From an archaeon (GTDB taxonomy: Archaea; Micrarchaeota; Micrarchaeia; Norongarragalinales; UBA97), in the NCBI GenBank assembly GCA_020057405.1, contig JAGVFW010000013.1:87144-151143 (forward strand): a DNA stretch of 64,000 bases. The letters run 5' to 3'. Position 1 is the first letter of the stretch; each line of letters opens with the position of its first letter. The notes below the pieces were generated by a model. It ran no database searches. It had not been told where the DNA came from and saw only the letters and a list, made by a program, of their open reading frames with translations. A program made the position numbers and the translations under genes. Shown here in pieces: positions 941-64,000 of the stretch.

Positions 941-1261
941 ATGAGTTTAGGTAGGAAAAGTTTGGTGGCCGTGCTACTGCTAATGGCAGTGCCTCTGGCG
1001 TTTGCGCAAACGCCCACGCCGCCGGGACAGGAAGTGGCTGGAAAGTTGTGCAGCATAGTGGATTTCGTGCAGTACATTGCCGGCGCGGTGGGTATAGTGG
1101 TCCTCGCAGTATTGGGACTCCAGTTCGTCACGGTCGGCTCCAACCCCATGAGAAGAGAGGAGCTAAAGACGCAGATGGGATTGGCGCTGATGGGCTTGTT
1201 CATCGTGCTTGTCTCGAAGTCCCTGGTTGGCCTCATACTGCCAAACGCGGCAACCTGCTAA
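941..1261 (+). CDS. VirB2/TrbC-like pilin subunit
   Basis: The 106-residue protein has a signal peptide (about 1-22, ending in AFAQ) and two hydrophobic helices (about 38-64 and 78-101) split by a short basic loop with PMRREE. This is the layout of VirB2/TrbC conjugative pilins and of the archaeal CedA1-type subunit. Cys37 and the terminal Cys106 could pair outside the cell. Location just before a VirB6-like, a PrgI-like and a VirB4-like gene supports the call more than the sequence alone. A GGTGGAAAG Shine-Dalgarno precedes the ATG. Confidence 0.7.
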   Translation: MSLGRKSLVAVLLLMAVPLAFAQTPTPPGQEVAGKLCSIVDFVQYIAGAVGIVVLAVLGLQFVTVGSNPMRREELKTQMGLALMGLFIVLVSKSLVGLILPNAATC

Positions 1262-1275
1262 AACCGGGTAAGCAC

Positions 1276-3716: not shown

Positions 3717-3722
3717 AAATAA

Positions 3723-4757: not shown

Positions 4758-6954
4758 AAACAAGCCAGACTACATAAAAATCGGCGAGCAGTATTGCCGC
4801 GTAATCGCAGTGCTTGGCGTCCCGCGAGTTGTGCGCGCTGGTTTTCTTAACGCGCTGATGATGCAGCAAGGCGATTTTGACGTGAGCATTCACGCTAGCC
4901 CGCGGCAAGTTGAGGACACTATAGCTGAACTAAACCACGAGCTGGTCAAGATGGCCGCGGACCTCTACTCGATGGAAAGCAGGGGCGACGTGGTGCCACC
5001 TAGCCTGAAAATGAAGTACGACGACACTATGCGCATCCTACAGCTGCTGCAAAGCGGGGAGGAAAAGCTCTTCGACTTCTCCCTCTACATCAACATTCGT
5101 GCAAAAAGCCCGGAAAAACTAGACGAGATGACCGGGAGAATGGGCGCGACCCTAGGGCAACTGGCGCTTCTTTACAAGACTATGGATTTGCAGATGCACG
5201 AAGCGCTTCCAAGCGTCCTCCCAATCGCCAGAAACCGGCTCGGCATCACCCGAAACATGACGAGCTCGGCCCTCGCAGCGTGCTTCCCCTTCACAACAAG
5301 CAACCTGCAGGTAATGGAAAACGGGATAGTAATGGGCGTAAACGACCTCACAGGCATTCCGATAATCATAGACTTGCACGCCCTCCAGAATTCAAACGCC
5401 TTGGTGCTCGGAGGCAGCGGCAGCGGAAAGAGCTTCAGCGTAAAAACCATTCTCTTGCGCTTGAGGCGCAACGGCACGCGCGTCTACGTAATAGACCCGC
5501 AAGGAGAGTACGCCAAGCTCGCCAAGAAATTTGGAAAAGGCGCGCAAGTAGTCGGATTCAACCCGCAAGACAACAACGCGATAAACCCATTTGACCTAAA
5601 CGGGCTGCGGCTAAGTGAGAAAGTCCACTCGCTGATGAGCCTATACTCCATAATTTGCGGCGAACTTTCCCCGGCCCAAAAAAGCCTGCTTGACGAAGCC
5701 ACTTACGCAATTTACGAGGAACGCGGAATAAGTGACTTTACGCAAGCGAATGAAAAAACTAGGATGCCGACCTTTCGCGACCTGCACGACTACTTCAGCA
5801 AGAAAGCAAACTCGCCGAATGACCTGATGCAGTCGCGTTCAACTGCTTTGGCGCTCTTAAACCGCGTAAAACCGTTCGCGACCGGCTCGATGAAGTGCTT
5901 CGACTCGCAGACTAGCGTAGACCTGGCGGCTGACTTCGTCGTTTTTGACGTCTCCTACTTTATCGACAAGATGCAGACGGTCGCGCCCCCCGCGATGTTC
6001 ATCGTACTCGACTTTTTACTCAACAAGATGAAGGAAGACTCACGCCAGAGAAAAGCAATAGTGGTCGACGAAGCCTGGCGCCTTTTGCGTGGCCCCAGCA
6101 TTTCGGAATACCTCCTCTTGTTCGCAAAAACAGCCAGGAAGTACAACACTTCCCTACAAATAATCACCCAAGAACTAGGCGACCTTGGCAAAAGCGAGGC
6201 CGGAGCGGCGGTTCTGGCCAACACGTCAGTAAAACTAGTGCTGAGGCAAGAACCCTCTGAAATAGAAGCCGTTGGAAATGCGCTCAAGCTAAACGCGAAC
6301 GAAAAAAACCGCCTTCTCTCGGCACAACCGGGCCACGGCGTGCTGTTCATCGAGAATTCCCGCATTCCGTACTACAGCATCCACATGCCTGAAGAAAAGG
6401 AATTCATTTCAACAAAACCAGAAGAAATGACGAGCCTAGAAAAAGAACACGCGGTCGTCAGGGCGGTTGAAGAGCAAGCGCCATTCGAGAAACTCGACTT
6501 CGAGAACGGCTTTTACAAGCGCGGCGACCTCACGCCCGGAGAGGTCATGCTATTGCTCAAAAATGGCTTTACCGTGGCGACAGCCTACGACATTCGGCTC
6601 ATGCGGCCAGTTGACTTCGTAGTAAAACCCAAGGCACCGGAAAGCGCGCAGCACACAATCTACGTGACTCAAGTCGAACGCCTAATTCGAGAACACACAT
6701 CTAACGTAAAGGTGAACGTGGGCAACGATGCCGACATCGTCTTTGTTGACAAAGACGGTAAGAAAATTGCGCTCGAAATTGAGACGGGAATGCGGCGCGA
6801 CTACCTGCTCAAAGCCAACTCCGCACACCTGCGAAAGTACGACGAGGTATACTTCCTGGTTACGAGCGTGCACTTGGTGGAAAAATACCGGAAAATAGGG
6901 AGGGTGCTGACGAGGTCGGAAGTCCAGAGGTTTGTGGAAGAGAGATTGAACTAG
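4669..6954 (+). CDS. VirB4-like secretion ATPase with nuclease-like tail
   Basis: The GTG at 4669 is preceded by a full GGAGGT eight bases upstream, so this start is preferred although it lies inside the previous gene. The 761-aa product has a VirB4 N-domain (about 25-180), Walker A GGSGSGKS (248-255), a VIDPQGEY strand (274-281), and Walker B AIVVDEAW (D467, E468) followed by sensor-like QIITQELGD. It should power substrate movement at the inner face of the channel. Residues about 655-761 are an extra domain with D689 and E703-x-E705 in ALEIETG and a following YFLVTS strand, reminiscent of PD-(D/E)xK folds, though the usual Lys is a Glu. Confidence 0.85.
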   Translation: MLERLFGRKREEPKLKERLLPYLLAPSSIENKPDYIKIGEQYCRVIAVLGVPRVVRAGFLNALMMQQGDFDVSIHASPRQVEDTIAELNHELVKMAADLYSMESRGDVVPPSLKMKYDDTMRILQLLQSGEEKLFDFSLYINIRAKSPEKLDEMTGRMGATLGQLALLYKTMDLQMHEALPSVLPIARNRLGITRNMTSSALAACFPFTTSNLQVMENGIVMGVNDLTGIPIIIDLHALQNSNALVLGGSGSGKSFSVKTILLRLRRNGTRVYVIDPQGEYAKLAKKFGKGAQVVGFNPQDNNAINPFDLNGLRLSEKVHSLMSLYSIICGELSPAQKSLLDEATYAIYEERGISDFTQANEKTRMPTFRDLHDYFSKKANSPNDLMQSRSTALALLNRVKPFATGSMKCFDSQTSVDLAADFVVFDVSYFIDKMQTVAPPAMFIVLDFLLNKMKEDSRQRKAIVVDEAWRLLRGPSISEYLLLFAKTARKYNTSLQIITQELGDLGKSEAGAAVLANTSVKLVLRQEPSEIEAVGNALKLNANEKNRLLSAQPGHGVLFIENSRIPYYSIHMPEEKEFISTKPEEMTSLEKEHAVVRAVEEQAPFEKLDFENGFYKRGDLTPGEVMLLLKNGFTVATAYDIRLMRPVDFVVKPKAPESAQHTIYVTQVERLIREHTSNVKVNVGNDADIVFVDKDGKKIALEIETGMRRDYLLKANSAHLRKYDEVYFLVTSVHLVEKYRKIGRVLTRSEVQRFVEERLN

Positions 6955-33420: not shown

Positions 33421-34356
33421 TTAGCGGTCAAATCCCATCATTTCGTCAAACCGCTCGTCCGCGCCCTTTAGACCGCGCCAGAGTTTTTCGTGGAACTTTA
33501 GTTTTTTTGGCGTTTCCTCGAACTCTCCGCACACTTTGGCAGCCAAGTCGATTAGTTCCTTGCCCGCGGGGCTCTTTGGCTTTGAGATTACGACGGGGAT
33601 TTCCGCGGCAAGGCTGCGGTGCACTTCGACGTCGGTGGGCACTTTGGAAATCACCTTTAGCTGTGATAGCTTCTCGACTTCGTCGACCGACATCTGGTGT
33701 TCCTTTCCGTCAAACATGTTTAGCACGATGCCCAGGTGCACCTTGTCTTCGCCTTGCAGGGCCTGCCGGTAGCGCACGATGTCGATTACCGATGGCATGG
33801 TTGGTATTGAGACGTAAAGGAGCTTTTCGGCAGCGAACAGGGTGGCAAACGCTTCCCGTCCCAGGCCCGGGCCGGCGTCAAGCACGACGTAGTCATATGA
33901 GAGTGCGAGCTGCTTGGCGATTTTCTTGATTTGGGAAACGTCGACGGCCTGGATGTTGGTCGCCTTCATTGACGCCGGCAGCACGGTCATGCCGCTTGGC
34001 TCGTGCTTGTATAGCGCTTCGGTGAGCTTGGCTTTCCCGCGCAGCACGTCGTTTAGCGTGTGCGGCGCGTAATGCATGCCGAGGGCCACACCTAGGTGCG
34101 ACGTGCCGATGTTGCAGTCAATGACGACTACTTTTTTTCCAAACTCGTGCGCGAGGGCAGCGGCGAGGTTGATTGACACCGTAGTTTTGCCTACCCCGCC
34201 CTTGCCGGAGACTACGCCGATGAGTTCGCCCGGAGGCCTGGGCCCGGTTTTCTTCCCTTCTTTTTTTTCCTCTAGCGTCTTTTTTTCCTCTGGGGGTTTG
34301 GCATTTTTTCTCTCTTCCGCCTTCTTATCTTCTTTTCCGCTTTCCTTTGCGCCCAT
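33421..34356 (-). CDS. MinD/ParA-family ATPase
   Basis: The 311-residue protein has an N-terminal Lys/Glu/Pro-rich segment (1-42) and a deviant Walker A GKGGVGKTT (51-59), then VVIDCNIGTSHLGVALG, YDYVVLDAGPG (switch region) and LGIVLNMFDGK. MinD-like ATPases position division, flagellar or surface machinery; the last region (GEFEETPKKLKFHEKLWR) replaces the usual amphipathic end. It lies 13 nt after the 2037-aa surface protein gene and may help localise that protein. Confidence 0.88.
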   Translation of the reverse strand: MGAKESGKEDKKAEERKNAKPPEEKKTLEEKKEGKKTGPRPPGELIGVVSGKGGVGKTTVSINLAAALAHEFGKKVVVIDCNIGTSHLGVALGMHYAPHTLNDVLRGKAKLTEALYKHEPSGMTVLPASMKATNIQAVDVSQIKKIAKQLALSYDYVVLDAGPGLGREAFATLFAAEKLLYVSIPTMPSVIDIVRYRQALQGEDKVHLGIVLNMFDGKEHQMSVDEVEKLSQLKVISKVPTDVEVHRSLAAEIPVVISKPKSPAGKELIDLAAKVCGEFEETPKKLKFHEKLWRGLKGADERFDEMMGFDR

Positions 34357-45115: not shown

Positions 45116-46669
45116 TCACTTCTTGTTTCCCCTGAACCGTTTCTCGATGCCGGCGGCGATTTTGTCGACTTCCTCGCCGATGCCCTTGGCGATAGATGCC
45201 CCTTCCTTTTCGCCCTTGCCTATCTTTCTAGAGTAGTGCCCTATTGCGATTGCAACTATTGCTGCGATGAGCAGGAGCAGCAGGTTGATCCAAATCGTCA
45301 TCCATAAAAGCTGGAAGCTGACTGGGGCCGAGTCTTTCGAGATACCTTCGTAGACGTCGGCAAAGACGTTTGCAGTGAGCGTATAAGTGCCCTGCGAGGG
45401 CGGGTTGGGCCACAAGAGCTGCACCGTCCGAGCTTCTCCAGCCGGGACATTCATGACGTCGCTTGGCCGAAGCACTGCTACCGCCTGGTTTTGCGAGTCA
45501 ATCACGCGCACGACGAGGTTAAGTGGGATTTCGATGTTGCCGTTGTTGCGCACCGTTGCCTTGATTGTTACCGGCGGGGCGGGCTTCGGAGTTCGCAACT
45601 GGTCGGCGAGGTCAAAAATGACTGCGTGGCCCGTGCTTGTTCCGAACAAGTCTGCGTAGTCGGGGTAAATGTCCTCCACTTCGAAAGTGTAGTTTGGCAA
45701 CGGCGCCTGGTATCCGCGCAGCACGTTTAGCAGGTCTTCGCGCACGAAGGACGCCCCCGCGTTGGGCTTTATTTTCGTGAGCTTGACGATGAAGCGCACG
45801 CCGGCCGCGGTCTTTAGCACTTCGCCCGCGTTTATCACGCTCTGCCCAACCCCGACGACCACTTCCTGGTGCGTCTGGTTTAAGAGTGTGGCAAGCTGGG
45901 CGAGTGAATAGACGCTGACTTCGGGCACGACGTAGACGGGGTACTCGTGCGAGTAAAGCAGCGTGTTTTCAAGCACCTCGCCGGTTGTCACCAGGCTTTG
46001 CGAGCCCGGCGGCTTTATCTTGAAAGCGAATTCGTTGACCTTTCGAGTTGTCTCGAACTCGTCGCGGCCCCTGATGAAAGTCACGTCGAGGTCGGCTAAC
46101 TGCCTCATGCGCGTTTCCTCGATGTTGCCAACGACGATGACCCGCCTGACGCCAACCTGCCTCATCGCATCGATGACGTCCTGCTTGGGGCCTAAAGTTC
46201 CTTCGCTTGGCACCATCGCGGCTCCAAGCGTGCGTGCGAGGTAAGTCGAGGAGATTGCGTCGAGGGCAAAGTCGTCGCGCGTTATTATGACTGTCTTCGG
46301 CCTCATTTTCTGAAGCAAGAGTATTGCCAGGTCATGGTGGTCGACGTATGGTGCGGCCTTGACGCTCAGGCCAACCGAGCGCAGGCTTATCGTAAGGGCA
46401 GGCAGTTCGCTCGTCCGCTTGTAGTAGAGGAGCGCTTCGCTCACGCGCAGGCCGTAGACTTCTTGGACGAGCGTGCGCAAGTCCTCGTTTCCAAGGATGT
46501 ACTTGAACTTGTAGCCTTCAGCATACGAGTACTGGGCCGCAATCACCGCGTCCTGCCAGGCCGGGGAGTTGAGCACGACTACGGCCGTAGCAGTGTTGGC
46601 AGTCTGGGCCGAGGCGAAGCTAGCTGCAGTAATCAAGAGGAACAAAAATGCAAAGGCACGCCGTATCAC
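45116..46669 (-). CDS. Secreted CWB2-like wall-binding protein with TM anchor
   Basis: The 517-residue protein has a signal peptide (1-22) and two or three CWB2-like alpha/beta repeats (AVVVLNSPAWQDAVIAAQYS, VIDAMRQVGVRRVIVVGN), which bind cell-wall polymers in bacterial S-layer proteins. A beta domain (PPVTIKATVRNNGNIEIPL) and a C-terminal TM helix (WINLLLLLIAAIVAIAIGHY) with a basic tail follow. It is a candidate for anchoring to surface glycan. GTG 46669 follows the upstream stop by three bases. Confidence 0.7.
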   Translation of the reverse strand: MIRRAFAFLFLLITAASFASAQTANTATAVVVLNSPAWQDAVIAAQYSYAEGYKFKYILGNEDLRTLVQEVYGLRVSEALLYYKRTSELPALTISLRSVGLSVKAAPYVDHHDLAILLLQKMRPKTVIITRDDFALDAISSTYLARTLGAAMVPSEGTLGPKQDVIDAMRQVGVRRVIVVGNIEETRMRQLADLDVTFIRGRDEFETTRKVNEFAFKIKPPGSQSLVTTGEVLENTLLYSHEYPVYVVPEVSVYSLAQLATLLNQTHQEVVVGVGQSVINAGEVLKTAAGVRFIVKLTKIKPNAGASFVREDLLNVLRGYQAPLPNYTFEVEDIYPDYADLFGTSTGHAVIFDLADQLRTPKPAPPVTIKATVRNNGNIEIPLNLVVRVIDSQNQAVAVLRPSDVMNVPAGEARTVQLLWPNPPSQGTYTLTANVFADVYEGISKDSAPVSFQLLWMTIWINLLLLLIAAIVAIAIGHYSRKIGKGEKEGASIAKGIGEEVDKIAAGIEKRFRGNKK

Positions 46670-46672
46670 ACC

Positions 46673-49600
46673 CTATCCTGCCTCCAAATAAGTGTCCAAT
46701 CGTCCAAGCGCACCCGGAAAAACGATTTCGTAGTCAGCCACGGTGCCGGTATAGTCCATGGCGTTATAGTTGACATTCGCGCAGAATATAATGCTGTCGC
46801 CACCCGTGTACGTTCCGCTGTTGTCCTGGTCGGAATACAGCGATCCAATGAACGAATTGTTGTCACTTGAGTTCATCACATTCACATTCGCCAGCCGACA
46901 CGTGTTGCGCAAAGTCGCGTTGTAGTTCCACGCGAGCTTGTCCTGCGAGCGCACCAAATTTAGGAACGTGTCCATCGCCGGCATGTCGTCCGCCAGTGAC
47001 GCCGTTCGCAGCCTTGACCACGTGATTGGGCTGCCGCTTCGGGTGATGTAGATTGTCGCGTTTTTAATCCTGCCTGCCGGGGGTTTGATGAACGCGCTGT
47101 TGCCGCTGCCGTTAAGTTGCATGAAAACCTGGCCCCGGTATGCCGTGTAGTTTTCAGTCCCCCCGACAGGATTGAGCGTGTAGTTGATAAACGCTAGGGC
47201 CGAGGCGTTCATGTTCCCCTCGGTGTCGGTGACGTAATACCGCCAGCGCAGGGAACTGTAGCCCGACAAGTTGACGAACTTCGTGACGTTGCTCCAGTTG
47301 GCGTTGCCAGTAAAGTCAACTGCCGAATCGTTGACGAGCACGCCGCTGCCGTTGTCAAACTCGAAGATGTAGGACTCGAACTGCACGTTATCAGTCCAAT
47401 AAGCGCTGAAAGTGATGTTAGTCGCCGCCCGCCTGCCGCTTGTGGTGTTACCCGACCAGTTCGGCGGTTCCGTGTCGTTTGACACAACTATCCAGACCGT
47501 CTGGCTGAAGTTTACCGTCGCGTTCGTGCTATTCACCAGGCTGTTGGTAGCGTTTGCGGTGAAGTTGTGCGGCGTGTAAGTGTTGTTGAACGTGTTGTTG
47601 CCGATAACTTGCGTGACTTCAACCCACGGCGTCACGCCGTCAACATCAGTCACCAGGTTTTTCCACATGGGGTTGGTGAAAGAACCCGTAGTGTTCGTTA
47701 TGTTGACGAGCGCGTTCGAGATTGCCGTATTGTTTTCCCAAGTGACATTGACGCGCACGAACCACTTGACTGTGAAGTTGTTGGACCACCCGGCACTCCA
47801 TCCGACTGCAGTGAGATTGAATGTCGTGTTGACGATTGTGACGTTTGAGTCGCCCTTCAAAAACACGTCGGCGTAGTTGGTGTCGCAGCCGTTGTTGCAC
47901 GAGTGCATGACGCTCTGGGTAAGTGCGTTGTCGGCAGACGCGGTAGAGTTATAGCCTGCGGAGAATGAGTCGAAAGTCGTGTTTGTGAAGTTGTGCATGT
48001 TGCTTCCGTAGAGGTAGGCCGCGTAGGCACGCGTGAAGCCGGCGGTCGGCAAAAAGCTCGCGTTGAGCACGACGTGCGTGAAAGTGCCGTTTGAGGTGTT
48101 AAGCAAGGTCAGGGCGTTTGCAAGCCTGCCGTTTGTGAAGATGGCGCTTGAGGACACGCTTAGGCCGAAGCTGTAGAGTGCGTAAATGCCGCTTGCGTTC
48201 GTGTCGTTGGTCGCAATTTCGCTGTCAATGACGGTAATGTTGCTTGACCGAAGCAGGTAGATGCCGCTTGCATTCGTGCTGTTTGTAAGTATTGTCGTTG
48301 AATCGATGAATAGGTTTGTCGAGTCCGTCGCGTTGATGCCGTCGGCGTTCGTGCCGTTTGTGATGAACGTGCAAAGAGTCGCGTTGAACCTATCGACGTT
48401 GAGGAGCGACACTGCGTCGGAGTTCGTGCGGTTGGTGCGGATCGTCACGCCAATGAGCGTGATGTTGTTGGCGTTGACCACGCGCAGGCCGTGCGAGCGC
48501 GTGCCATTTGTGGTAATGGTGGTGTTGATGATGGTGACATTGATGCTGTTGCTAATGCCCGTGCCGTTTAAGTAAATCGCGGGCGAGTCGATGAGCGCAA
48601 CGCCCGACTGTCCGATGCGGCAGCCCCGGATGGTGATGTTCTCGAGGCCGACTGTGCTGTAGTTGATTCCCACTCCGGCCGAAGTAGTGGCGTAGGTGAT
48701 GTTGTAGCCCTCGCAGTCAAGTGTGATGTTGCTGTGGGTAAACGTGATGCAGTTGATTGTTGCCGAAATGCTCTTGTTTAGGGTGTAAAGCGAGTTGAAC
48801 CCTTCCTCGGCGCCGGTGTAGGGCAGCCCGCCGCAGCGGTTTATCGCATGGGGGTCTGCTGCGATGAATGTGTTGATTTGCGTTGCATTCATGTTGCCTT
48901 GCGTGTCGTTGGCGTAGACGCGCCAGCGCACGACGCTGCCGATGGCCGGAAGGATTTTGGTGACGTTGGTCTGGTTTCGCTTGTCGTAGAAGTTGACGAG
49001 CGAATCGTTCACCATCGTGCCGCTGCCGTCGTCGTACTCAAAGACGTACCCCCACAACTGGTTTTCATCCTGCCAGTCTACCATGAAGAGCGCCGCTTCG
49101 CCGGCTCTCGTGGTGTTGGTGTAGTTGCGCGTGTAGTTGGGCGTGAGCAGGTCGCCGTGGAATGAGAGGTTGGCGATGGTGAAGTTGCCCATAAACCGGG
49201 GTGTGCTTCCGTCCTCGTACCACATTTTTACCCTGCCGATTGCGCTTGTCTGTAGCTGTATGATTACTGCCAAGCGGCTTCCGGTGGGCAGGAACTTGGA
49301 GGTTACCACGCCGAATGTGAGTTGTCTTGCGATGCAGGCTGCGGTTGTAGTGACGTTGAAGTAGGCCGTCTGGCCGATTTTCGTCATGGATCCGGTATAA
49401 GTGCTGTAGTTGTAGAGCCAGGCGCGCGCGCCGTTGCTTCCCGCGGCTGCCGTGACGTTGAGGCAAACGAAGACGCCTGCAGTGCCGCTCATGTTGCGCA
49501 TTTGACTTGAGTTAACTGGGTCTTCGTAGAACGTGAAGTTTACTATGTTGTTGCTGACTTCGTCGTGCGCAAGTGTCTTTGCCGGTAAGCTCGTCTGGTT

Positions 49601-49732
49601 CATCGTGTAGAATGAGGCAGTGTCGTTGATTGTCACGAGTGTGGTGCTGTTTCTGAGAAACAGCGTGGCGGCGTTGACATTCGGCACTGTAACGACGATA
49701 AGCAGTAGGAGCAGAAACAGCCTTCCCTTCAC
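46673..49732 (-). CDS. Secreted beta-helix surface protein
   Basis: The 1019-residue protein has a signal peptide (LFLLLLLIVVTVPNVNA). Residues about 290-620 are a right-handed parallel beta-helix (PbH1/NosD-like: CEGYNITYATTSAGVG, ENITIRGCRIG, NSTNASGIYLLRSSNITVIDS), flanked by Ig-like domains with FEYDDGSGTMVNDS motifs repeated twice. There are dozens of N-x-S/T sites. No C-terminal TM is visible. Beta-helices often bind or cut polysaccharide. It is in one transcription unit with the CWB2-like gene. Confidence 0.75.
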   Translation of the reverse strand: MKGRLFLLLLLIVVTVPNVNAATLFLRNSTTLVTINDTASFYTMNQTSLPAKTLAHDEVSNNIVNFTFYEDPVNSSQMRNMSGTAGVFVCLNVTAAAGSNGARAWLYNYSTYTGSMTKIGQTAYFNVTTTAACIARQLTFGVVTSKFLPTGSRLAVIIQLQTSAIGRVKMWYEDGSTPRFMGNFTIANLSFHGDLLTPNYTRNYTNTTRAGEAALFMVDWQDENQLWGYVFEYDDGSGTMVNDSLVNFYDKRNQTNVTKILPAIGSVVRWRVYANDTQGNMNATQINTFIAADPHAINRCGGLPYTGAEEGFNSLYTLNKSISATINCITFTHSNITLDCEGYNITYATTSAGVGINYSTVGLENITIRGCRIGQSGVALIDSPAIYLNGTGISNSINVTIINTTITTNGTRSHGLRVVNANNITLIGVTIRTNRTNSDAVSLLNVDRFNATLCTFITNGTNADGINATDSTNLFIDSTTILTNSTNASGIYLLRSSNITVIDSEIATNDTNASGIYALYSFGLSVSSSAIFTNGRLANALTLLNTSNGTFTHVVLNASFLPTAGFTRAYAAYLYGSNMHNFTNTTFDSFSAGYNSTASADNALTQSVMHSCNNGCDTNYADVFLKGDSNVTIVNTTFNLTAVGWSAGWSNNFTVKWFVRVNVTWENNTAISNALVNITNTTGSFTNPMWKNLVTDVDGVTPWVEVTQVIGNNTFNNTYTPHNFTANATNSLVNSTNATVNFSQTVWIVVSNDTEPPNWSGNTTSGRRAATNITFSAYWTDNVQFESYIFEFDNGSGVLVNDSAVDFTGNANWSNVTKFVNLSGYSSLRWRYYVTDTEGNMNASALAFINYTLNPVGGTENYTAYRGQVFMQLNGSGNSAFIKPPAGRIKNATIYITRSGSPITWSRLRTASLADDMPAMDTFLNLVRSQDKLAWNYNATLRNTCRLANVNVMNSSDNNSFIGSLYSDQDNSGTYTGGDSIIFCANVNYNAMDYTGTVADYEIVFPGALGRLDTYLEAG

Positions 49733-53475: not shown

Positions 53476-54252
53476 TCAGTCTATCCATTTCACTCTTCCA
53501 ACAAGTTTCTCTAGAAGTTGTGGGTCGGACCGCCGTTTTTCCAATAGTCTGTTTAGGTAATCCCGGGCGTGGAAAACGGCCTTGGCGGTTCTCACGTTTT
53601 GGCTCGTTTGGCTATAGTCCGCGTTTTTCCCGTTGTGAATAAGATCGGGCGGCAGCCACTTGCTTCTCTTAACCCCGCCAAGATAGGGCTGTCGGCTGGC
53701 GACAATCAAGAGTCGCGTAGCATCTTCTGGTTCGAAATTCCTTGCCGTGCCCGCAAGATTGAGGCCTAGCCAATGCATGTATCCGGCGTGTTGTTCGGCT
53801 GAGAAATCGTGGGCTTGGGGTCTAGCTAGTTGGTCAATGCCCAACAGTTGGAGGAGTCTAACCGCGTCAACCCGGTTATCTCTTCCGGCTACAGCGAGTT
53901 CCAGCCACCGTATCGCTTCGACAAACACGGCTCCGGCGCTTAGGTGCGTCTGCATCTGTGAGGGGCCCAAGCCTTTTTTTTCACCTAATTTTTCCCGTAC
54001 GTGATTCATCACGACGTGCAGAGCCTCGTGGCTGATCGTTTCTTCACTAGCGTCCGGGCTTAGTCTAATGGCGTAGTCAAGCAAATCGTAAGTCGGTATT
54101 CCGCTTGCCTGCCCGACGCCGCTTTTTTCCGCAACAACGAGCCGATATTTTGGCAAGCTCTTCACGCGCAGGACGGATGCCCACTCGGCTAAGTGGTGGT
54201 TGATGCGCTTGCGCAGCCTTTCCCGGTGGTCTTCCCGCTCTGCTTTTCTCAT
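53476..54252 (-). CDS. HExxH zinc metalloprotease-like protein
   Basis: The 258-residue protein has a HExxH motif in ETISHEALHVVMNH (residues about 75-88) and a later acidic helix (FVEAIRWLELAV) that could give the third zinc ligand (gluzincin type). There is no signal peptide, so it acts inside the cell. It lies between the giant ATPase gene and the scaffold gene, 22 nt after the former. Its target is unknown. Confidence 0.65.
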   Translation of the reverse strand: MRKAEREDHRERLRKRINHHLAEWASVLRVKSLPKYRLVVAEKSGVGQASGIPTYDLLDYAIRLSPDASEETISHEALHVVMNHVREKLGEKKGLGPSQMQTHLSAGAVFVEAIRWLELAVAGRDNRVDAVRLLQLLGIDQLARPQAHDFSAEQHAGYMHWLGLNLAGTARNFEPEDATRLLIVASRQPYLGGVKRSKWLPPDLIHNGKNADYSQTSQNVRTAKAVFHARDYLNRLLEKRRSDPQLLEKLVGRVKWID

Positions 54253-54274: not shown

Positions 54275-57200
54275 CTAGCCGCCGAGGCCCTTGAGCCGGG
54301 CGTTGAGCGAGTCGATGTAGCTTTGCGCCATGCGCAGGCTGCCCTGCTTCATCTTGTCGCCGGCAATCTTGAGCTCGAGCTCCAGGTCGTAAGTGTCCCT
54401 GCCGCCTGCCTTGAGTGCGGCAATGCGCTTGGCCGTCTCGTCAATCTGCATTTGCACTGCGTCAAGGGCATCCAATTCGGCGTCTGTGAGAGCAAACGTG
54501 CTGTGCTTGAGTGCCCTGAAGCTGACGAACCATGGCTTGCCGTCGTTGTACTCTGGGTTCTGGAAGAGGCCCGAGCCGATGGTGAGTTTGGTGACGCGGT
54601 TGGCGTAGTCGCTGCCGTACTTGGTCTTGACGCGGCCGATGTCTCCCTCGTACTTGGTGCGCAGCTGGATTTCATTGCTGATGTTGGCCCGAATCGCGCC
54701 CTTGAAGTCGAGGAGCACTTGGGAAATGAGGAACAAGCCGATGCCCCACTTGCGGAATTCGCGGAAGCCGCGCTCTAGGGAGACGTAGCCGCCCTTGCCG
54801 CCGTACTTTGGCAACAACCTGTGGACTTCATCGAAGATGAGGAGGACCCGCAGGTTCTTGCTTTCAGGCGGCCTTGAGGCGAAGATGTTCTCGACGCTCT
54901 TTCGCACGAACCCGTCAATCAAGTCGTTGGGCAGCTTGTTCATCACGAAGACCGTGATTTCGCCGGGCTTCATGTGGTCAAAGATGTTCACGCCAACGCT
55001 TGGGTCCTTGATGAGGATGATGTTGGTCTTGTAGCTTCGCGCGGCCTCGGGTTTCATGCCAAAGTTTCGGTAGAGCGCAAGCATTTGCGCGTCGGTCTGT
55101 GGCCTGATGAAGCCAGTCCACTGGGCCGTCGGGTCGAACACTATGACCGGCAGGTTGCGTTCAAGCAGTTCTTCGGTGATGACTTGTGCCGAGACTGACT
55201 TACCTGAACCAGTACCGCCTGCCGCGATGCTGTGCATCTGCAGCTTGTTTAAGTCAACATAGGCCGTGATGTCGGTTTCCGCAATCCTGCCGACGGGAAT
55301 GGCGTTGGGGCCGGGCTGAGGCAGTTTCTTGAAGTCAAGCGGGAAGATGTAGCGCGCCGCCTGCCTCTTGCCTGTCATGTAGCCGCGGTAGACGCGCCTG
55401 CCGACAAGCGTTGCAACTATGAGCAGGAGTATGATGTAGGTGAAGATGCTCGAGGTGATGCCGCCGATGACTAAACCGACTAGCGATGGTGAGGTCAGCT
55501 CGAAGTCGTCAACGGCCTTTGAGTTCCTTCCGCCAGAGTAGGTGATGATTGCCTCAAGCACGTACTTGTCTGCGGGAACGTCTTCGGGAATCGGGATTGC
55601 AACGACGCGCGTAACTATGTCGCGCACTGCGACCGTGTCTGACGTGGTGAGGATGGCCGCGTCTTCGCCGACGGTCTTGACGTTTAGCGTAAGCTGGCCG
55701 TCGGTCACTTCAGAAACTTCGCCGATGTTCACTATAGTGACTTCGCCGCGAAGCGTGTTGCCGGGTTGCATGACCTTGCTTAGCACTTTGAGCCTGACTT
55801 CGAGGATGGGTTCCGGCGCGCGGACTATCTTGACCGTAATCGGCCTGCGGTGCACGACGCCGTCGACAGTGATGATGATGGTGCCCTGGTACGTGCCTGG
55901 CAGCGAGTTTTCAGTGCTGATGATGTTGACTACAACCCCGCCGACGCTGTTGGGGCCCAAGGTAACCGACGGGGAGTCGAAACTAATGAAGTCCGCTGCA
56001 TCGCCTTCTACCCTCGCCGTAGCCGTTGTCGTCCTGCCGAGGTTGTTCGTCACCGAAATCGAGTACTTGACGCTCTCGCCGGGCTTGATGGTGACAAAGA
56101 TGATGTTGGCTTCAACCTGTGATGGTGGTGCCGAGATGTTGGCTTGTCCGCTGCCAGCCTGTCCCGTGCCAGCTCCTCCGCCCGCTCCTGGCGTTGGCGA
56201 GCCTTCACCACCGCTTCCGCCTCCTCCGCCACCGCCTCCTCCTCCGCCACTGCCTCCTCCGCTTCCGTTGCCAGTGCCGTTACCGGTGCCGTTGCCGACG
56301 TTTCCGCAGTCGGCGTTGCACACTGAAGCGCCTTCGCCGTGGTTTGATTCGCAGATGCCGTCGCCGCAAATGAATTGCGCAAGCGCGTAGGCCGGCTTAA
56401 GCAAGGTTGTGCGTTCGACCATGATGTTCTGGCTTGAGACGAGTACTGAGTTGTTGCTGCGCACCCAGCTGTTGTTGTCGCACCCGACTGTTGGCGTGTA
56501 GTTGGCGCACGAGTAGATGCCAAGGTTTGATTCTGAAAAGCCGGTGTAGCCCGTGTAGTTCAGCGAGACGTTGGCATTTCCGTAGGTAAGCTGGTTTGCT
56601 AGGTAAAGGCCCTTGATTGCACCCGCTCCGATGCGCACTGCCGGGATGTTGCCAAAGAGAACCGGGTTGTAGACACTAGCGGTAATCGGGACCGATATCA
56701 GCAACAGGCGGTCTGAAGTGAGGTTGAACGACAGTCGGTTGTAAGTGTCGCCGTAGACGGTCTTGTTGTAAGTGCCGTTTGACAGTGTAGCGAACTCGAA
56801 CGGGTGGGCGCCAAGGCTGTCGAAGAAGTCAAACACTATCGGCAGGGCCGAACTGCCGCCGGTCTCCTGGTCAGTAGAAACGCCGTGGAAGAGGAACGCG
56901 TTTCCGACTACGAACGTACCGCTTGCCGTGCCGCAATTGGCGCTGGCATCGCAGGCCCGCGCGTCAATGGTGTACGTTCCGGTTGTCGTGGTGTTGGTCA
57001 GGTTAAGCGCGTAGTGGTAGATGTCCCCAGCCCGGCCAAGGTAGGTGAGGGACTGGGCCTGCACCATGCCGCCTGGATAGGTGATGTTGAGCGTGACGTT
57101 CGCGTTGTTGATGATGCCGCCGTCAGTGACGTTGAGTGTGATTTGCTGGACCGTGCCCGCTGCAATTATCGCAGTGAAGTTAATTCCTAGCACCGGGGCG

Positions 57201-60200
57201 GCATTGTCAATGTAGGCAACCGCGCGTTGTTCAATGTCATAAGCCGTGAGGCTGCGGTTTAAGTCGTATGCCGTGACGTTAAGGTCGTAGGTCTTGCCCG
57301 CCGCTATCGAGGGCGCGGTGACGTTAATCAGCCACAAGCCAAGAACGTCGGAGTAGTTGATTGCGGTGAAGTTGGTAACCGGGTTTGACGTGCCGTCGGC
57401 GTCAAGGCTTACGTTGAAGGCCACGCTCGAGTTAATCGCGAGGGCCTCGTAGCTTACGTTGACGAGCAACTGCAGCGTGTCACCCGAGCTGACGTTGGTG
57501 TAAGGCTGCGCTTCGGTCGGCTGCGTGATGTTGACGAGCAGCGGCTCAAGGGTGATGTTGACTGCGGTGTTGACATCGGACGGAATCGCACTCGTGTTCC
57601 TCGTCGTGATGTTGCCCAAAAGCTCGAGGTGGTTGTTCGAGAAGGGCGTGTTGTAGGTGACTAACACTGCCGTGCTTGCGCCCGGGCTAAGGCTAAGGTA
57701 GGTCGTGTTGAATGTGACGTAGGGCGCGATTGCACCCTGGGCGAGCACGGTGAATTCGCCGTAAATGTTTCCGGTGTTGGTGACAAGCAGCGTAGTGAGC
57801 GTGCCGTTGGTGCTTTGCACTGCAACCGTGCTCACGCTTGTCGGCGTCTGGCTCCAGCTTAGGTTGGATGGCACTGTCACCTCGATGGTGAGCGAGTCGT
57901 TGGTGCCGTTAGCGCTCGTTGCCGTCAGGGTGCCCGTATATAGCGCGGGCGGCTGCGCGGCCGGTACCGTTACCGACACGTTTATCGCAGCCGCCGCGCC
58001 TGGGGCAAGGAAGGATACGCTTGAGATGTTGAGGTTGACTGTGAAGCTTGTGCACACGGCGCCCGACGCGCAGGTTAAGGCGACGTTGAAGAGCGGCGAG
58101 TTGCCAGTCGAGTTTAGCACCGCGACCTTGCTTGAGGTTCCGGCAGCCGAGATGGTGTAGGCGAGGGTCTTGGGCGTGAAGTTGGCGATTGCCGAGGCAG
58201 CCACCCTAATTGTGAAGGATGTGGTGTTGATGCTGGTGGTGTCATCAAGGTTAGTCCAGTTTGAGGTTGCGTTGAACTGGTAGTCTCCGGCAGCGGTGCC
58301 AGCGGGCAGGGATATGAGCACGGTGGTGTTATACGTGCTTTCTGCCGACGTGTTCTTGAGAAGCGCGCCGATTATGGTGAAGTTGGGCGCCAGGCTGCCG
58401 GTAGCGATAGTCAGGTTGAGCGTCGTGTTTTGCGTACGTGAGAAGCCCGAGTTGTTTGCAAACACTATTACTGCGACAGCCGCACCAGCGCTCCTGCTGA
58501 CGTTGTAGACGTTGATGATGTTGCCCGTGTAGTTGGTTGACGTCGTGACGTTGGTGGTCGCGGATGCCGTGCGATTGAACGCCTCGGTGCAGTTGATGTT
58601 GCCGACCGTGTCGTTCGCGCACAGCTGCACCGCGTAGGCGCCGCCGACGTTCGTCGAGTAGTTGGTGCCGTAAAGGCCTCCCCCTAACGCGGTCAGGTAA
58701 GAGATTATGCTCGTCGAATTCGGCATGGTGATGTTTGTCCAGGCAAAGTCGACTGCGAAGTTGTCGGTGATATTCGCGCTTATCGAGAGGTTTTCGTAGA
58801 TTATCTCGAAGACCTGCGGGGTGACGTTGATGTTCTTAAACTGCGGCGGCGTGTCGGTGACGTTTAGGTGAACCGTCGTGAAGTTCTGCGTTACCGTGTC
58901 GTTGAACATTGTTATCGTGATGTCGTAGATTCCGGGAGGCTGTATGCCGGGTATGACGTAGCTGACGTTGACCGTGATGGACGCCTGCTTGTCAATGTCT
59001 GCGGCGTAGAGGGTAAGGTCATTTAGCCGCAGGAGGTTTGGCCCGTCCTGGCTCACTAGCAGGCCGAGCTTGATGTTGCCCGTGTTGTTGATTACGAGGG
59101 TGCCGATTGTGCCACTGCCGCCAATGGGCACGGTGACGTTGCCAAACGTCGTGGGCGAGCGCACGAAGTGCTTGTCAACGGACACTGTGAGGTTCATCAC
59201 AAGCGAGTCGGTGCCGTCGTTGGTAGAGTTCGCTTGCAGGCTAGTCCAGTAGAAGCCCGGCGCCTGGCCGGCGGGCACGGTGATTGTCAGGTTGACTGTG
59301 AAGTTCGTGCCGGCCTGAACAAGGCCCTGGAAGTTCGGGTTGATGGTGAGGATGCAGCCCGAGCAGCTTGTGGCCAAGTCGCCACCTTGGGTGAACACGT
59401 GGACGCCCTGCAGTGCGGCATTGCCCTTGGAGAGAACCACGATTGTGCCAATGTTGGTAGTCACGCCATGCGGCGTGTTGGCGTTGAGCGCAGTTTCCAC
59501 AATGTCAAGCACGGGGTTTGACGCAACTATGATGAGGGTGGTGTTCTGCGTGAAGTTGTTCGTCAGGTCGGGGTTGCGCCAGGTGACGTTGTAGGTTATG
59601 GTGATGAGCTTGGGTGGGGTTGCAGCCTCGACAGTCACGAGCACGTTTCTCACGCACGAAACGTTGGGCCGCACGATGCCGCAGCTGATGCTCGTCTGGT
59701 TGTAGGTGATTTCGTTGTTCGAGTCGTCCGTCAGGTTGATGCTGGTGACGTATGATGGCGCGGGGCCGGTGTTGGTGAAGTTGATTGTGACGTTAAACGT
59801 GAAGTTGTCGGTCTGCGTGATGCCGGAGGCAGTTATCTGCGTCACCGATACGGGTACCCTGCCGGTCGTCTTGCCGTCGACCTGGAATGTGCCTGCAAAC
59901 GTGGTGTTGAGGTTCCTTTCGGGCGGCAGGTCGATGGCAAAGAGCGTCACGAGGTAGGTGCCGTCAATGGCCGGTACGTAAGTGACGTTGTAGGTGGAGT
60001 TGTCGATAGTAGTGAGCGTGAGGTTTATTGCAGTGCCATTTGGCATCGTGACCGTCGCGTAGGCGCTTGAGATGCCGTTGTCGTCGGTGATATTCGCGCT
60101 GATTACCGTGATGTTGAGGTTGGCTTCAAGGCTCGCGTTTGGCAGGATGCTTACGCTGTAGAATTGCGGCGGGTTCTGGTCTTGGACCGTCACCGTGACT

Positions 60201-63200
60201 ATTGAGGCGTTGGTGCCCGCGCTGTAGAACTTGGGCACGTCGTCGCCGATTCCGCACGCTATCGTGAGCGCGCCCTTTTGGCCGGGCGTGAAGTTGGCGA
60301 CCGCGTAGCCCGTTGAGTTTGTGGTGACGTTGGCAAACAACACCGAGCCGGGGGTGTAGTTGTAGTAGAAGCTGATGTTGTAGTCAGGCACGTTTGCCCC
60401 GCTTTCGCTGTCGAGGACAGTGCAGGTTACGTTGAACTCCTGCGGGTAGGGGAGTGTGGCGCCGTCTGTGGGTGAGTTGACGAGCACGTTGGCGACACCG
60501 CTAACTGTGATGATGACTGACTTGTTGCCGTCGTCGTAGTACGGCAGGCTGGTCCGAAGCGTGTAGTTGCGGAAGCCGGTGGTCTGCGTCGTTAGCGGGA
60601 AGGTCGCGCTGATGCCGGTTGCAATCAGTTGCGTCTCGTTGTACCAGTCAAACTGCGGGTTGACTGAGTAGTTGTTGTTCTCGTCACTCAAGTTTGCCGA
60701 GAAGAGCACGGAGCCGGCCTTGCTGTAGAAGCTGCCGTTAAGGGGCGAGGTGATGTTGGCCAGAAGCTTGCCGAACACGTTGAGGCTCGTCGTGTTGGTC
60801 GACGCGTTTTCATTCGAGTTTCTAGTGGCATTCACGCTGAAGTTGTAGTTGCCGGGCATCGCGTCGTCGGGTGGGTTGATGAGGACGTAGCAGCTGCCGA
60901 TTGCGTTTGTGGTGCAGTTTGCCACAAAGCCGCTTTCGTTGTAGAAGCGCACGTCGGCACCAGCCGCCGTGCCGATTGCGGCGTCAAGCACGCGCACGGT
61001 GATGTTTGCTGTAAACGGCGAGAACGAATCGTTGCGGTAGATGGTCTGGTTCACCGTGACGAACTGGTCAATCACGAGCTGCCTTGCGAGCCGCACGTTG
61101 ATGCGCTTTTCAAAGTCCGACGTGTTGTAGTTGAGGCCGTCTGCGGTGCTGATGTTGCAGCTTATCGAATAGTTCGCGGGAAGGTCGATAGCCGTGTTCC
61201 AAATCCAGTTGGCCTCGCCGCTTCCGTCTGTTGTGGTGCTTGACTGTAGCGTGTCGTTCTTGTAGAAGTTAACCGCATAGCCGCTAAGCGGGGCGAACGT
61301 GTCGTTGTCGTAAACCGCGCAGGTAACGGTAAGCAACTGGCCTGCGGTCGCGTCAGTGTTGTTGGCGGGCGAGATGCGCGTGACGTTGGCCCAGCCGTAG
61401 ACGACAATCGAAGTCAGGTTCGTGCCGTTATCGTAGAACTGCTTGCTTGCGTTTGCAGTCACATTCGTCGTCCCAAGGGTGTAGCGGCTGGTGAGCGTCC
61501 AGTTGGTGAGGTTGCCTGAACCGACTGTCCTGCGGCTGGCGTTATACCATGTGATTGTCGCATCGCTGATTACCGCGGCGCAGTCGTCATTCGCCGTCAT
61601 GTTTAGCAGGAACGGCTTGTTGCGGTTGGCGACCTTGCCCGGAGTGGGTGAAGTGACGTTTGCAAAGAGCTGGCCGACTACCGTCAGGCTGGTGGCCGAC
61701 CCGTTCACCGGCTTGTAGCAGCTGTCGGTAGTGCCGCCAGTCCACTGGCGCACGCCCACTGAAGTTGCGCACGTAGGGTCGTGGTCAATCGAGCAGTAGC
61801 CGTTTGAAGACGAGCAGGTCGGCGAGAGCGTGTAAGTCGAACCGCTTTCGGTAATCCACACTGTTCCCGCAGTGCCGTTGGGATAGACCCCGAGGTCGGA
61901 GTCGAAAATCCGCGTGCTCAGGAACGCGTTACTCGTGCCCGTCCTTCTGATCGTCGAGTTGCTGCTAGCGTTGAAAATCGTCACGTCGTCGGGCTCAAGG
62001 GTGAAGTTGAGCCACGAGGAGTTGTACGTGTAGGACAAGTTGAGGTAGTCTGTCGAGACGTTGCCGCCCATCGCGCCTACCGCGAGGAAGTAGATGCGCG
62101 TGTCGTTGACGTACCGGCTGATGTTGCCGGAAAACACGTTCGTCAGGACTTGTGACGATGCCGACGTGTGGTTGGCGAATCCCTGCCAGGCGGTTGCGTT
62201 GTTGTCCCAGATAAACAGCGAGTCGCTGGAGGTTGTCGCATTCTTGCCAAAGCCCTTGTACCACACTGTGAAGTTGAGTGTCTGGAACTGGTCGCCGGCG
62301 ACACGGAAACTGAATTTCTGCGTCGGCCAGTTGGCGCCAGAGGCATTCGTGACGGCAAGAGTGCCCTCGTCTGCAGATACATCCGAGTAGTTGTTGGTTG
62401 CCGCCTGGGCGCCGGAGCCGAACTCGGCTTCGGCAGTGATGTTGTTGGCCGCGGGCGGGAACGCGGCGGTTGTCGAGTATGTGGCGTTGTGCAGGGCCGT
62501 CGGGAACACTATTGAGGCGAAGTCATAGGTTGCCGTGGTGGCCGTGGCCACGGCCGGCACTTCGGCCCCGTAGCCGAAGAAGTCTGTTGTGTTGAACTTG
62601 AAGTAGTTGACTCCCTGCTCGTCGCACTGGAACCGGTGTGCGAACTCGTATTGTTTGTTCTGCACGCCGCTGCCTGCGACGACCGTGTTGTTCATCAGGT
62701 GCCAGTCGAGCCCGTCCCGGCTCTTCCAAAGCGTGAGGTTGTTCTGGTTGAGGTCGGGGTCGTTGATGGTCACGCGGAACAGGTAGGATTCGCCCCAGCC
62801 GCCGAAGAAGTGGTTAACGCTCTGCAGGCTGAGTGCGGGCGCCGCGCCGATGAAGAACGCGTTTTCCTTGCGCGTGAAGTTGGTTGCATAGAACGGGCGC
62901 GAAGTGTTGAACGTGACGTTATAGTAGCCTATGGTCGTTACACTCTGCCAGCTGCAGTTGTACCAGCCGTTGCCAATCGTGTTGTTGGTGCAGAAGAACG
63001 AGTTGGCGCCCGTGCGCTGGTTAAACGCGGGGGTAGCGTCAGTCACGGTGGTGTTTGTCGTTGCAGAGCAGTCGTCATCGAGGTAGCCGAGCAGCGGGAC
63101 TATCGAGTTGCGCAAGTAGCCTTCCCCGTTTGGCGCGGTCAGGCTCGGCTGCAAGTCGCCCCAAATCTGAACAGTCAGGTTAGTCGAGTTCACATCCTTG

Positions 63201-64000
63201 TAGCAGGTGTTCCTGTCGGTGCCGCCAAACCACTTCTGCAGCCCTACCTTGTAGTTGCAGCTTGGGTCAAAGTCGAAGATTATGTTACCTGAGTCGTTCG
63301 TCTGCAGGCCTTGGCTCTGGCGCACATCGGTGCCGTTGATGGTCGTCCAGATTGTGGCATTCCATCCGAGGCTAAGCGGCGTGCTCCTATCGTAGTCGGT
63401 GGCGAGTAGTACGAGCTCTCCACTCGTCGTGCCGTTTCGGTAAATTACTGAATTGTTTCCGCTAAAGTGCGTGATGTTGATGTCATCTGCTTCGATGGTG
63501 AAGTTCAAGGCCGTCGTGTTTGTCGCGTACGTGCGGTTGTCGGTCGCGGTGAACGAGAATTCCCACGCGCCAAGGTCCGAACAGCTATATCCGCCAAACG
63601 GTCCGCGCGTGCTTAGCACCACGGTAGTGTTTGAGGGATTGTCGATGAACGTATTGTTGGCTTCGTTCCAGGCGGCGTTACCAAACGCCCTTACGTAGAG
63701 TGTGATGGTGATGTTGTCCGCGTCAAGGTCGCTCAAGTTAACCGAGAATGGGAATTCCTCTCCCCAGCCAGCGACAGGCTTGAGTGCCGTTGCGTTTGAC
63801 AGGGCCGGCCGCGTTTCGACGAAGAGCGCGTTGCCCTGGGTCGTAGTGACGTTGTTGTGGAATGCCTTTGACGCGTTCATGGTGAAGTTGTGCCACTTGG
63901 CATCCATGTCGGTCGTGTTGCGGTCGCAGGCAAAGAGGCCGCCTCCGAAGTTGACGGGCGGGTAGCAGGTCTGGTTAAGGTACGTAAAGACGTTGGTGAT
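54275..64000 (-). CDS. Giant Ig-repeat surface protein fused to a HerA/VirB4-type ATPase (5' end outside window)
   Basis: The frame is open to the window edge: 31 codons precede the first ATG at 63907, so at least 3241 residues are present and the start is missing. Most is extracellular: dozens of N-x-S/T sites, NEW3/CARDB-like Ig repeats, a CGDGICESNHGEG motif and a Gly-rich linker (about 56110-56300). One TM helix (ITSSIFTYIILLLIVATLV, about 55400-55475) precedes an about 375-residue cytosolic ATPase: Walker A GGTGSGKS at 55196-55219, VIVFDPTAQW, Walker B LLIFDEVHR near 54820-54840, and FLISQVLLDF. The ATPase is HerA/VirB4-like. It should couple outside contact to an inside motor, which is inferred. 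Confidence 0.85.
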   Translation of the reverse strand: MTNVFTYLNQTCYPPVNFGGGLFACDRNTTDMDAKWHNFTMNASKAFHNNVTTTQGNALFVETRPALSNATALKPVAGWGEEFPFSVNLSDLDADNITITLYVRAFGNAAWNEANNTFIDNPSNTTVVLSTRGPFGGYSCSDLGAWEFSFTATDNRTYATNTTALNFTIEADDINITHFSGNNSVIYRNGTTSGELVLLATDYDRSTPLSLGWNATIWTTINGTDVRQSQGLQTNDSGNIIFDFDPSCNYKVGLQKWFGGTDRNTCYKDVNSTNLTVQIWGDLQPSLTAPNGEGYLRNSIVPLLGYLDDDCSATTNTTVTDATPAFNQRTGANSFFCTNNTIGNGWYNCSWQSVTTIGYYNVTFNTSRPFYATNFTRKENAFFIGAAPALSLQSVNHFFGGWGESYLFRVTINDPDLNQNNLTLWKSRDGLDWHLMNNTVVAGSGVQNKQYEFAHRFQCDEQGVNYFKFNTTDFFGYGAEVPAVATATTATYDFASIVFPTALHNATYSTTAAFPPAANNITAEAEFGSGAQAATNNYSDVSADEGTLAVTNASGANWPTQKFSFRVAGDQFQTLNFTVWYKGFGKNATTSSDSLFIWDNNATAWQGFANHTSASSQVLTNVFSGNISRYVNDTRIYFLAVGAMGGNVSTDYLNLSYTYNSSWLNFTLEPDDVTIFNASSNSTIRRTGTSNAFLSTRIFDSDLGVYPNGTAGTVWITESGSTYTLSPTCSSSNGYCSIDHDPTCATSVGVRQWTGGTTDSCYKPVNGSATSLTVVGQLFANVTSPTPGKVANRNKPFLLNMTANDDCAAVISDATITWYNASRRTVGSGNLTNWTLTSRYTLGTTNVTANASKQFYDNGTNLTSIVVYGWANVTRISPANNTDATAGQLLTVTCAVYDNDTFAPLSGYAVNFYKNDTLQSSTTTDGSGEANWIWNTAIDLPANYSISCNISTADGLNYNTSDFEKRINVRLARQLVIDQFVTVNQTIYRNDSFSPFTANITVRVLDAAIGTAAGADVRFYNESGFVANCTTNAIGSCYVLINPPDDAMPGNYNFSVNATRNSNENASTNTTSLNVFGKLLANITSPLNGSFYSKAGSVLFSANLSDENNNYSVNPQFDWYNETQLIATGISATFPLTTQTTGFRNYTLRTSLPYYDDGNKSVIITVSGVANVLVNSPTDGATLPYPQEFNVTCTVLDSESGANVPDYNISFYYNYTPGSVLFANVTTNSTGYAVANFTPGQKGALTIACGIGDDVPKFYSAGTNASIVTVTVQDQNPPQFYSVSILPNASLEANLNITVISANITDDNGISSAYATVTMPNGTAINLTLTTIDNSTYNVTYVPAIDGTYLVTLFAIDLPPERNLNTTFAGTFQVDGKTTGRVPVSVTQITASGITQTDNFTFNVTINFTNTGPAPSYVTSINLTDDSNNEITYNQTSISCGIVRPNVSCVRNVLVTVEAATPPKLITITYNVTWRNPDLTNNFTQNTTLIIVASNPVLDIVETALNANTPHGVTTNIGTIVVLSKGNAALQGVHVFTQGGDLATSCSGCILTINPNFQGLVQAGTNFTVNLTITVPAGQAPGFYWTSLQANSTNDGTDSLVMNLTVSVDKHFVRSPTTFGNVTVPIGGSGTIGTLVINNTGNIKLGLLVSQDGPNLLRLNDLTLYAADIDKQASITVNVSYVIPGIQPPGIYDITITMFNDTVTQNFTTVHLNVTDTPPQFKNINVTPQVFEIIYENLSISANITDNFAVDFAWTNITMPNSTSIISYLTALGGGLYGTNYSTNVGGAYAVQLCANDTVGNINCTEAFNRTASATTNVTTSTNYTGNIINVYNVSRSAGAAVAVIVFANNSGFSRTQNTTLNLTIATGSLAPNFTIIGALLKNTSAESTYNTTVLISLPAGTAAGDYQFNATSNWTNLDDTTSINTTSFTIRVAASAIANFTPKTLAYTISAAGTSSKVAVLNSTGNSPLFNVALTCASGAVCTSFTVNLNISSVSFLAPGAAAAINVSVTVPAAQPPALYTGTLTATSANGTNDSLTIEVTVPSNLSWSQTPTSVSTVAVQSTNGTLTTLLVTNTGNIYGEFTVLAQGAIAPYVTFNTTYLSLSPGASTAVLVTYNTPFSNNHLELLGNITTRNTSAIPSDVNTAVNITLEPLLVNITQPTEAQPYTNVSSGDTLQLLVNVSYEALAINSSVAFNVSLDADGTSNPVTNFTAINYSDVLGLWLINVTAPSIAAGKTYDLNVTAYDLNRSLTAYDIEQRAVAYIDNAAPVLGINFTAIIAAGTVQQITLNVTDGGIINNANVTLNITYPGGMVQAQSLTYLGRAGDIYHYALNLTNTTTTGTYTIDARACDASANCGTASGTFVVGNAFLFHGVSTDQETGGSSALPIVFDFFDSLGAHPFEFATLSNGTYNKTVYGDTYNRLSFNLTSDRLLLISVPITASVYNPVLFGNIPAVRIGAGAIKGLYLANQLTYGNANVSLNYTGYTGFSESNLGIYSCANYTPTVGCDNNSWVRSNNSVLVSSQNIMVERTTLLKPAYALAQFICGDGICESNHGEGASVCNADCGNVGNGTGNGTGNGSGGGSGGGGGGGGGGGSGGEGSPTPGAGGGAGTGQAGSGQANISAPPSQVEANIIFVTIKPGESVKYSISVTNNLGRTTTATARVEGDAADFISFDSPSVTLGPNSVGGVVVNIISTENSLPGTYQGTIIITVDGVVHRRPITVKIVRAPEPILEVRLKVLSKVMQPGNTLRGEVTIVNIGEVSEVTDGQLTLNVKTVGEDAAILTTSDTVAVRDIVTRVVAIPIPEDVPADKYVLEAIITYSGGRNSKAVDDFELTSPSLVGLVIGGITSSIFTYIILLLIVATLVGRRVYRGYMTGKRQAARYIFPLDFKKLPQPGPNAIPVGRIAETDITAYVDLNKLQMHSIAAGGTGSGKSVSAQVITEELLERNLPVIVFDPTAQWTGFIRPQTDAQMLALYRNFGMKPEAARSYKTNIILIKDPSVGVNIFDHMKPGEITVFVMNKLPNDLIDGFVRKSVENIFASRPPESKNLRVLLIFDEVHRLLPKYGGKGGYVSLERGFREFRKWGIGLFLISQVLLDFKGAIRANISNEIQLRTKYEGDIGRVKTKYGSDYANRVTKLTIGSGLFQNPEYNDGKPWFVSFRALKHSTFALTDAELDALDAVQMQIDETAKRIAALKAGGRDTYDLELELKIAGDKMKQGSLRMAQSYIDSLNARLKGLGG

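Follow-up and report, generated by a model that had tools for sequence, protein, structure and literature searches.

A SPEARE-type giant surface protein with a HerA-like motor and candidate partner genes in a micrarchaeon

Gene A (54275–64000) encodes a SPEARE-type giant surface protein, in which an extracellular Ig-repeat stalk, one transmembrane (TM) helix and a HerA-like ATPase are joined in a single chain. It lies in the window, the whole 64-kb stretch of DNA analysed here (bases 87144–151143 of a 151,710-bp contig, from a 1.22-Mb genome), where all features described are on the minus strand unless stated. The organism belongs to the Micrarchaeota, which bears out the suspected DPANN origin. 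The stalk-TM-ATPase layout, already known from nanohaloarchaea, proves to be widespread, and its companions are three partner genes (B, C and D), not a type IV secretion ATPase; the window carries all four genes of this module. We read gene A as a ring motor anchored in the membrane, whose long glycosylated stalk serves contact-dependent attachment and the transfer of macromolecules, and assign this reading a probability of about one half.

The original prediction had proposed both the fusion in one chain and its novelty. The fusion stands. The novelty does not, since giants with this layout were published as SPEARE in 2019 (Hamm 2019, PMC6642349) and again in 2023 (Reva 2023, PMC10266531). 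The former reported the conserved intracellular part also in Woese-, Aenigm- and Micrarchaeota and Altiarchaeales (PMC6642349), and the latter described a Sec signal, Ig repeats, a TM and a cytosol-facing VirB4/TraG-like ATPase (PMC10266531). Known members measure 5,998 aa (Nha. antarcticus), 9,409 aa (SVXNc_0300) and 8,880 aa (BNXNv_0298) (PMC6642349, PMC10266531). Going by these published descriptions, we liken gene A to the named SPEARE proteins: it is giant and mostly extracellular, with Ig repeats, adhesion-type domains and a sequon excess, and has one C-terminal-proximal TM, beyond which a conserved VirB4/TraG/HerA-like ATPase, with helices at its end, lies in the cytoplasm. A Laminin-G or protease-like domain has been claimed for some members, the protease claim being disputed (PMC10266531); any such regions of the window protein would fall past the contig end. 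Unlike the SPEARE proteins of Nanohaloarchaeota, the window giant is micrarchaeal, has no adjoining VirB4 and is accompanied by genes B, C and D. This member, the partner genes, the exclusion of VirB4 as a general partner, and how large and widespread the family is appear not to have been described in openly accessible literature.

The stalk, the membrane helix and the motor

Gene A is a single frame, stop-free over 3,241 codons inside the window, and runs on without a stop up to the contig edge for a total of 3,430 codons (L001). The 5' end lies off the contig, which breaks off within an array of ~320-aa all-beta units. The predicted length of at least 3241 residues was right as to the frame, which is supported by end-to-end homology with relatives, but covers only the C-terminal portion of the protein. 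One array unit (62948–63907, residues 1–320 of P0001) was modelled by AlphaFold2 as all-beta with a pLDDT of 94.6 and matches tandem Ig-fold proteins in Foldseek; beside it, one more Ig-like unit extends past the window edge. A conserved juxtamembrane part follows (55463–62020, residues ~630–2815), with collinear matches of 1,000–1,550 bits across ~2,200 aa in many relatives. Within the stalk lie a Gly/Ser-rich linker (56212–56297), recognised as a tandem repeat and from its translation, and weak Pfam matches to MG2 and filamin. The ectodomain holds 173 N-x-S/T sequons, against 61 ± 7 in composition shuffles, and the ATPase part holds one, in keeping with the N-glycosylation-rich Ig-repeat stalk that had been predicted.

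The single TM helix (55358–55447, residues 2821–2850, model residues 41–70) is supported by the AlphaFold2 helix, hydropathy and the positive-inside rule. The 25 residues preceding it contain no Lys or Arg and the 30 following it contain six, from which we place the C-terminus in the cytoplasm. Read from sequence features, the predicted topology with the motor inside and the stalk outside is well supported.

The ATPase core (54518–55303) is assigned to DUF87/HerA by profile (Pfam, residues 2870–2927, E 8.9e-12) and by fold. It contains a Walker A motif (GGTGSGKS, 55196–55219), a Walker B motif (LLIFDE, 54827–54844) and a sensor (ISQ), so the complete P-loop motor foreseen from the letters alone is present. 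Alignment of 74 family members (A1) shows that columns K123, D246, E247, Q283, R269 and R272 are invariant, comprising the Walker A Lys, the Walker B Asp-Glu, the sensor Gln and the REFRKWG motif. Behind the core is a C-terminal helical bundle (54287–54484; AlphaFold2 helices 362–387, 393–407 and 411–427). The model of TM plus ATPase (pLDDT 93.5, pTM 0.85) has archaeal HerA as its top PDB fold (4d2i, E 6.6e-15), alongside SIR2-HerA complexes, with TcpA and VirB4 ranking lower; searched by sequence against the PDB, the family profile returned HerA-type proteins only. The NCBIfam CedD and HerA models match 73 of the 74 members and VirB4_CagE matches one, weakly, all of them far below cut-off. 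The motor is therefore HerA-like rather than VirB4, although VirB4 and TraG share the wide FtsK-HerA superfamily of pumps.

With the helicase/translocase HerA (Sulfolobus HerA 4d2i and relatives) the motor shares the core fold, both Walker motifs, the sensor Gln and the Arg-rich motif, but the AlphaFold2 model has no N-terminal HAS barrel; TM helix and Walker A are separated only by a short beta hairpin. The TM and the giant stalk take the place of the barrel and fix the motor to the membrane. CedD and CedB, which are part of a crenarchaeal DNA import system, are likewise HerA-like membrane-linked ATPases, but lack a giant stalk.

Relatives and distribution

Scanning genome contigs with the gene A ATPase returned 289 relatives, the best 80 of which are 48–69% identical. 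In at least 69 of these 80 loci, a hydropathy test places a TM helix at the same position, ~65–90 residues ahead of the match, and the frame runs upstream from it into a sequon-rich region, often past the 10-kb flank. Most of the remaining loci are contig-cut or fall marginally below the TM threshold. Because the stalk-TM-ATPase frame recurs in so many independent loci, and in long contigs, gene A is neither a frameshift nor a misjoin.

Frames of many relatives end at contig edges, as that of gene A does. Those running stop to stop within long contigs have 10,846 (Hydrothermarchaeum), 11,249, 11,262, 12,056 (Jingweiarchaeum) and 12,373 residues (Micrarchaeota). Their order is an N-terminal hydrophobic anchor, a head, an array of ~20–26 units of 310–320 residues each, the conserved juxtamembrane part (~2,200 residues), the TM and the ATPase. 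An N-terminal signal or membrane anchor is present in four complete relatives; the window frame is without its 5' end. The window protein carries the last array units, and their best matches are the same-position units of relatives, counted from the C-terminal end. From these matching end units and the lengths of the complete frames, we infer a whole protein of probably ~10–12 thousand residues. Among L113–L118, G085 and G064 share positional orthology over their first nine repeat units, and the last units are positional orthologs in all giants; in the middle of the array, units seem to have been expanded about three at a time. In two complete giants (L115 and L117/L118, in G013 and G085), the open frame ahead of the first TM includes an AbrB-like (G013) or winged-helix-like (G085) stretch, so that some giants may place both termini in the cytoplasm, the N-terminal one binding DNA.

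The motor was found in 24 of the 34 sampled genomes of a Nanohalarchaeota class (NAR1_1133 and SVXNc_0300 not being among the proteins reached), in 46 of 115 Aenigmatarchaeota and in 5 of 146 genomes of the window's own phylum, to judge by its relatives G010/L004 the Micrarchaeota. It also occurs outside DPANN in Hydrothermarchaeum, with a 2.2-Mb genome, which counts against the transfer model. In the motor tree, the window and L004 group together inside an Aenigmatarchaeota-rich clade (98/90), and most groups are split, a pattern that would fit interphylum transfer or old paralogs. A short woesearchaeal-type branch (L049, L051, L053, L058, L059, L063, L065, L066, L078 and L082) has TM-ATPases of ~1,150–1,400 aa with an ectodomain of ~600 aa, which likewise counts against transfer; these carry an extra C-terminal ~200–400 aa, with DUF5752 repeats in L053. 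Members binned as Halanaerobiaceae and as Heimdallarchaeota (L055; L052, L013) group with sequences from Aenigmatarchaeota and probably come from stray contigs.

Partner genes

Gene B (P0003, 49758–53405) encodes a 1,215-aa cytoplasmic coiled coil with short helical-hairpin modules, and is tied to the giant by both linkage and co-occurrence. Its homologs comprise 68 neighbouring frames. In 64 of the 80 best loci one lies downstream of the motor gene, no more than 1.6 kb away, and most sampled Nanohalarchaeota loci have one directly downstream of the motor. Among 115 Aenigmatarchaeota genomes, P0003-like genes (E<1e-30) occur in 40 of the 46 with the motor and 3 of the 69 without (Fisher 6e-21). 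Gene C (P0006, 34370–40483) encodes a second surface protein of 2,037 aa, with NEW3/MG2 domains (Pfam), a TM and a tail bearing the same short helical-hairpin module as the P0003 family. Homologs of P0006 adjoin the giant in ~30 loci, eleven near-complete ones being 29–34% identical to it, and P0006-like genes occur in 29 of the 46 motor-bearing and 6 of the 69 other Aenigmatarchaeota (7e-10). Both p-values are inflated by shared ancestry and come from incomplete genomes; same-order linkage points the same way. Lastly, gene D (33421–34356), which starts 14 bp past gene C, encodes a MinD/ParA-like ATPase by Pfam, and in 19 loci a member of its family is found no farther than 10 kb from the giant. 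We found no earlier description of these partner genes in openly accessible literature.

Other proteins in the window were not counted as partners. None of P0002, P0004 and P0005 has a homolog beside another giant in the neighbourhoods of the relatives' loci, so we rejected them as module members and treat them as insertions between A, B and C. A 258-aa protein inserted between A and B (53476–54252) has an HEALH motif like that of zinc metalloproteases and no Pfam match; between B and C (45116–49732) are two further secreted or surface proteins, P0004, which is sequon-rich, and P0005, with CARDB and a TM. Farther away, P0008 (7504–9204) is a further HerA-like ATPase that ends in an endonuclease-like (REase-like) domain of the MTES_1575/DUF559 type, and matches the giants only weakly.

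Attachment, transfer and the alternatives

The original prediction had suggested contact-dependent transfer or adhesion, and a contact-dependent role for the giant is reasonable. From its anatomy, topology, intact motor and conserved company, we infer a ring, contact with a partner, a cargo and a direction as follows. HerA-type cores would assemble into a ring beneath the membrane, bringing several stalks together around a single pore; these glycosylated stalks would bridge to a partner cell, and ATP hydrolysis would drive a polymer, either protein or nucleic acid, across the junction. The gene B product may assemble or gate the motor, the gene C product may be a second outward subunit, and the gene D product may position the complex, the whole conduit working without a VirB4-type secretion machine. 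For this model speak the fusion with its fixed TM, the catalytic invariance, the HerA fold, the topology, the conserved stalk, the partners and the absence of VirB4. A SPEARE-type protein is known to be expressed (PMC6642349), and a nanohaloarchaeon-Haloferax culture showed bridges measuring up to 11 nm, along with host DNA that bore methylation of the symbiont type (PMC11001535). We would go only tentatively as far as a self-contained archaeal cell-to-cell conduit unrelated to type IV secretion, kept together as a module and exchanged between phyla. In it, stalk and translocase in one ~12,000-residue chain would work with three companions: a coiled-coil protein as adaptor, a second surface subunit of 2,000 residues and a MinD-like ATPase as positioner.

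The main warning against transfer comes from Nha. antarcticus, where the cytoplasmic and extracellular parts of the protein were in different gel fractions, via processing or bead beating; stalk and motor may thus separate. In this one species the observation favours an adhesin whose HerA-like domain serves stalk assembly, clustering, force sensing or controlled release, with no cargo crossing the membrane. An Ig-repeat stalk is typical of adhesins, and the giants' neighbourhoods contain no conserved multi-TM channel protein, which counts for an adhesin and against transfer. However, the catalytic motifs are fully conserved (n=74), the motor belongs to a superfamily of DNA and protein pumps, and cell-cell transfer has been reported in one system (PMC11001535). 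We consider a pure adhesin rather unlikely.

It is improbable that the motor instead imports nucleic acid, taken from a partner cell or from the environment, to supply DPANN cells that are poor in nucleotides. HerA, CedD and CedB are indeed the nearest named profiles, but the matches lie far below the equivalog cut-offs. The sole reported transfer runs from symbiont to host (PMC11001535). No Ced gene of the crenarchaeal import system (PMC9905601) is among the giants' conserved neighbours.

Reva 2023 assigned the SPEARE type to type IV secretion because a VirB4/TraG-family gene lies next door, directly downstream of SVXNc_0300 and BNXNv_0298 (PMC10266531), and proposed for nanohaloarchaea that the giant works with this separate ATPase. 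The window, too, has a VirB4-like gene, but it lies 47 kb from the giant. Moreover, strong TraG P-loop matches are found in none of the 115 Aenigmatarchaeota, although 46 have the motor, and motor-bearing genomes show no enrichment for them (7 of 50, compared with 15 of 146 genomes of the window's phylum; p 0.45). At several of the Nanohalarchaeota loci covered, which did not include that of SVXNc_0299, the adjacent second ATPase is a paralog of the same TM-HerA family. Together with the profile difference noted above, this makes a type IV secretion role highly improbable; by linkage and co-occurrence, VirB4/TraG is excluded as a general partner of the giants. The VirB4-like gene belongs to a separate type IV secretion-like locus on the plus strand (1048–6954), with a T4SS-pilin-like gene (2763–3716), a PrgI-like gene (3723–4757) and the VirB4/TraG ATPase itself (4576–6954, PF19044, E 1.4e-29).

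That an assembly artefact or missed frameshift joined a surface protein to an unrelated ATPase has practically no chance, for although the contig ends within gene A, the relatives show an identical junction and spacing across many independent assemblies and frames of 10,846–12,373 aa inside long contigs.

SPEARE-type proteins are a leading candidate for the exchange of material between DPANN archaea and their partner cells, and their published type IV secretion reading rests on a neighbouring VirB4 gene. Partner conservation over ~80 loci, the exclusion of VirB4 as a general partner and complete frames of up to 12,373 residues turn a vague candidate into a defined module, one testable in cultured nanohaloarchaeon-host systems.
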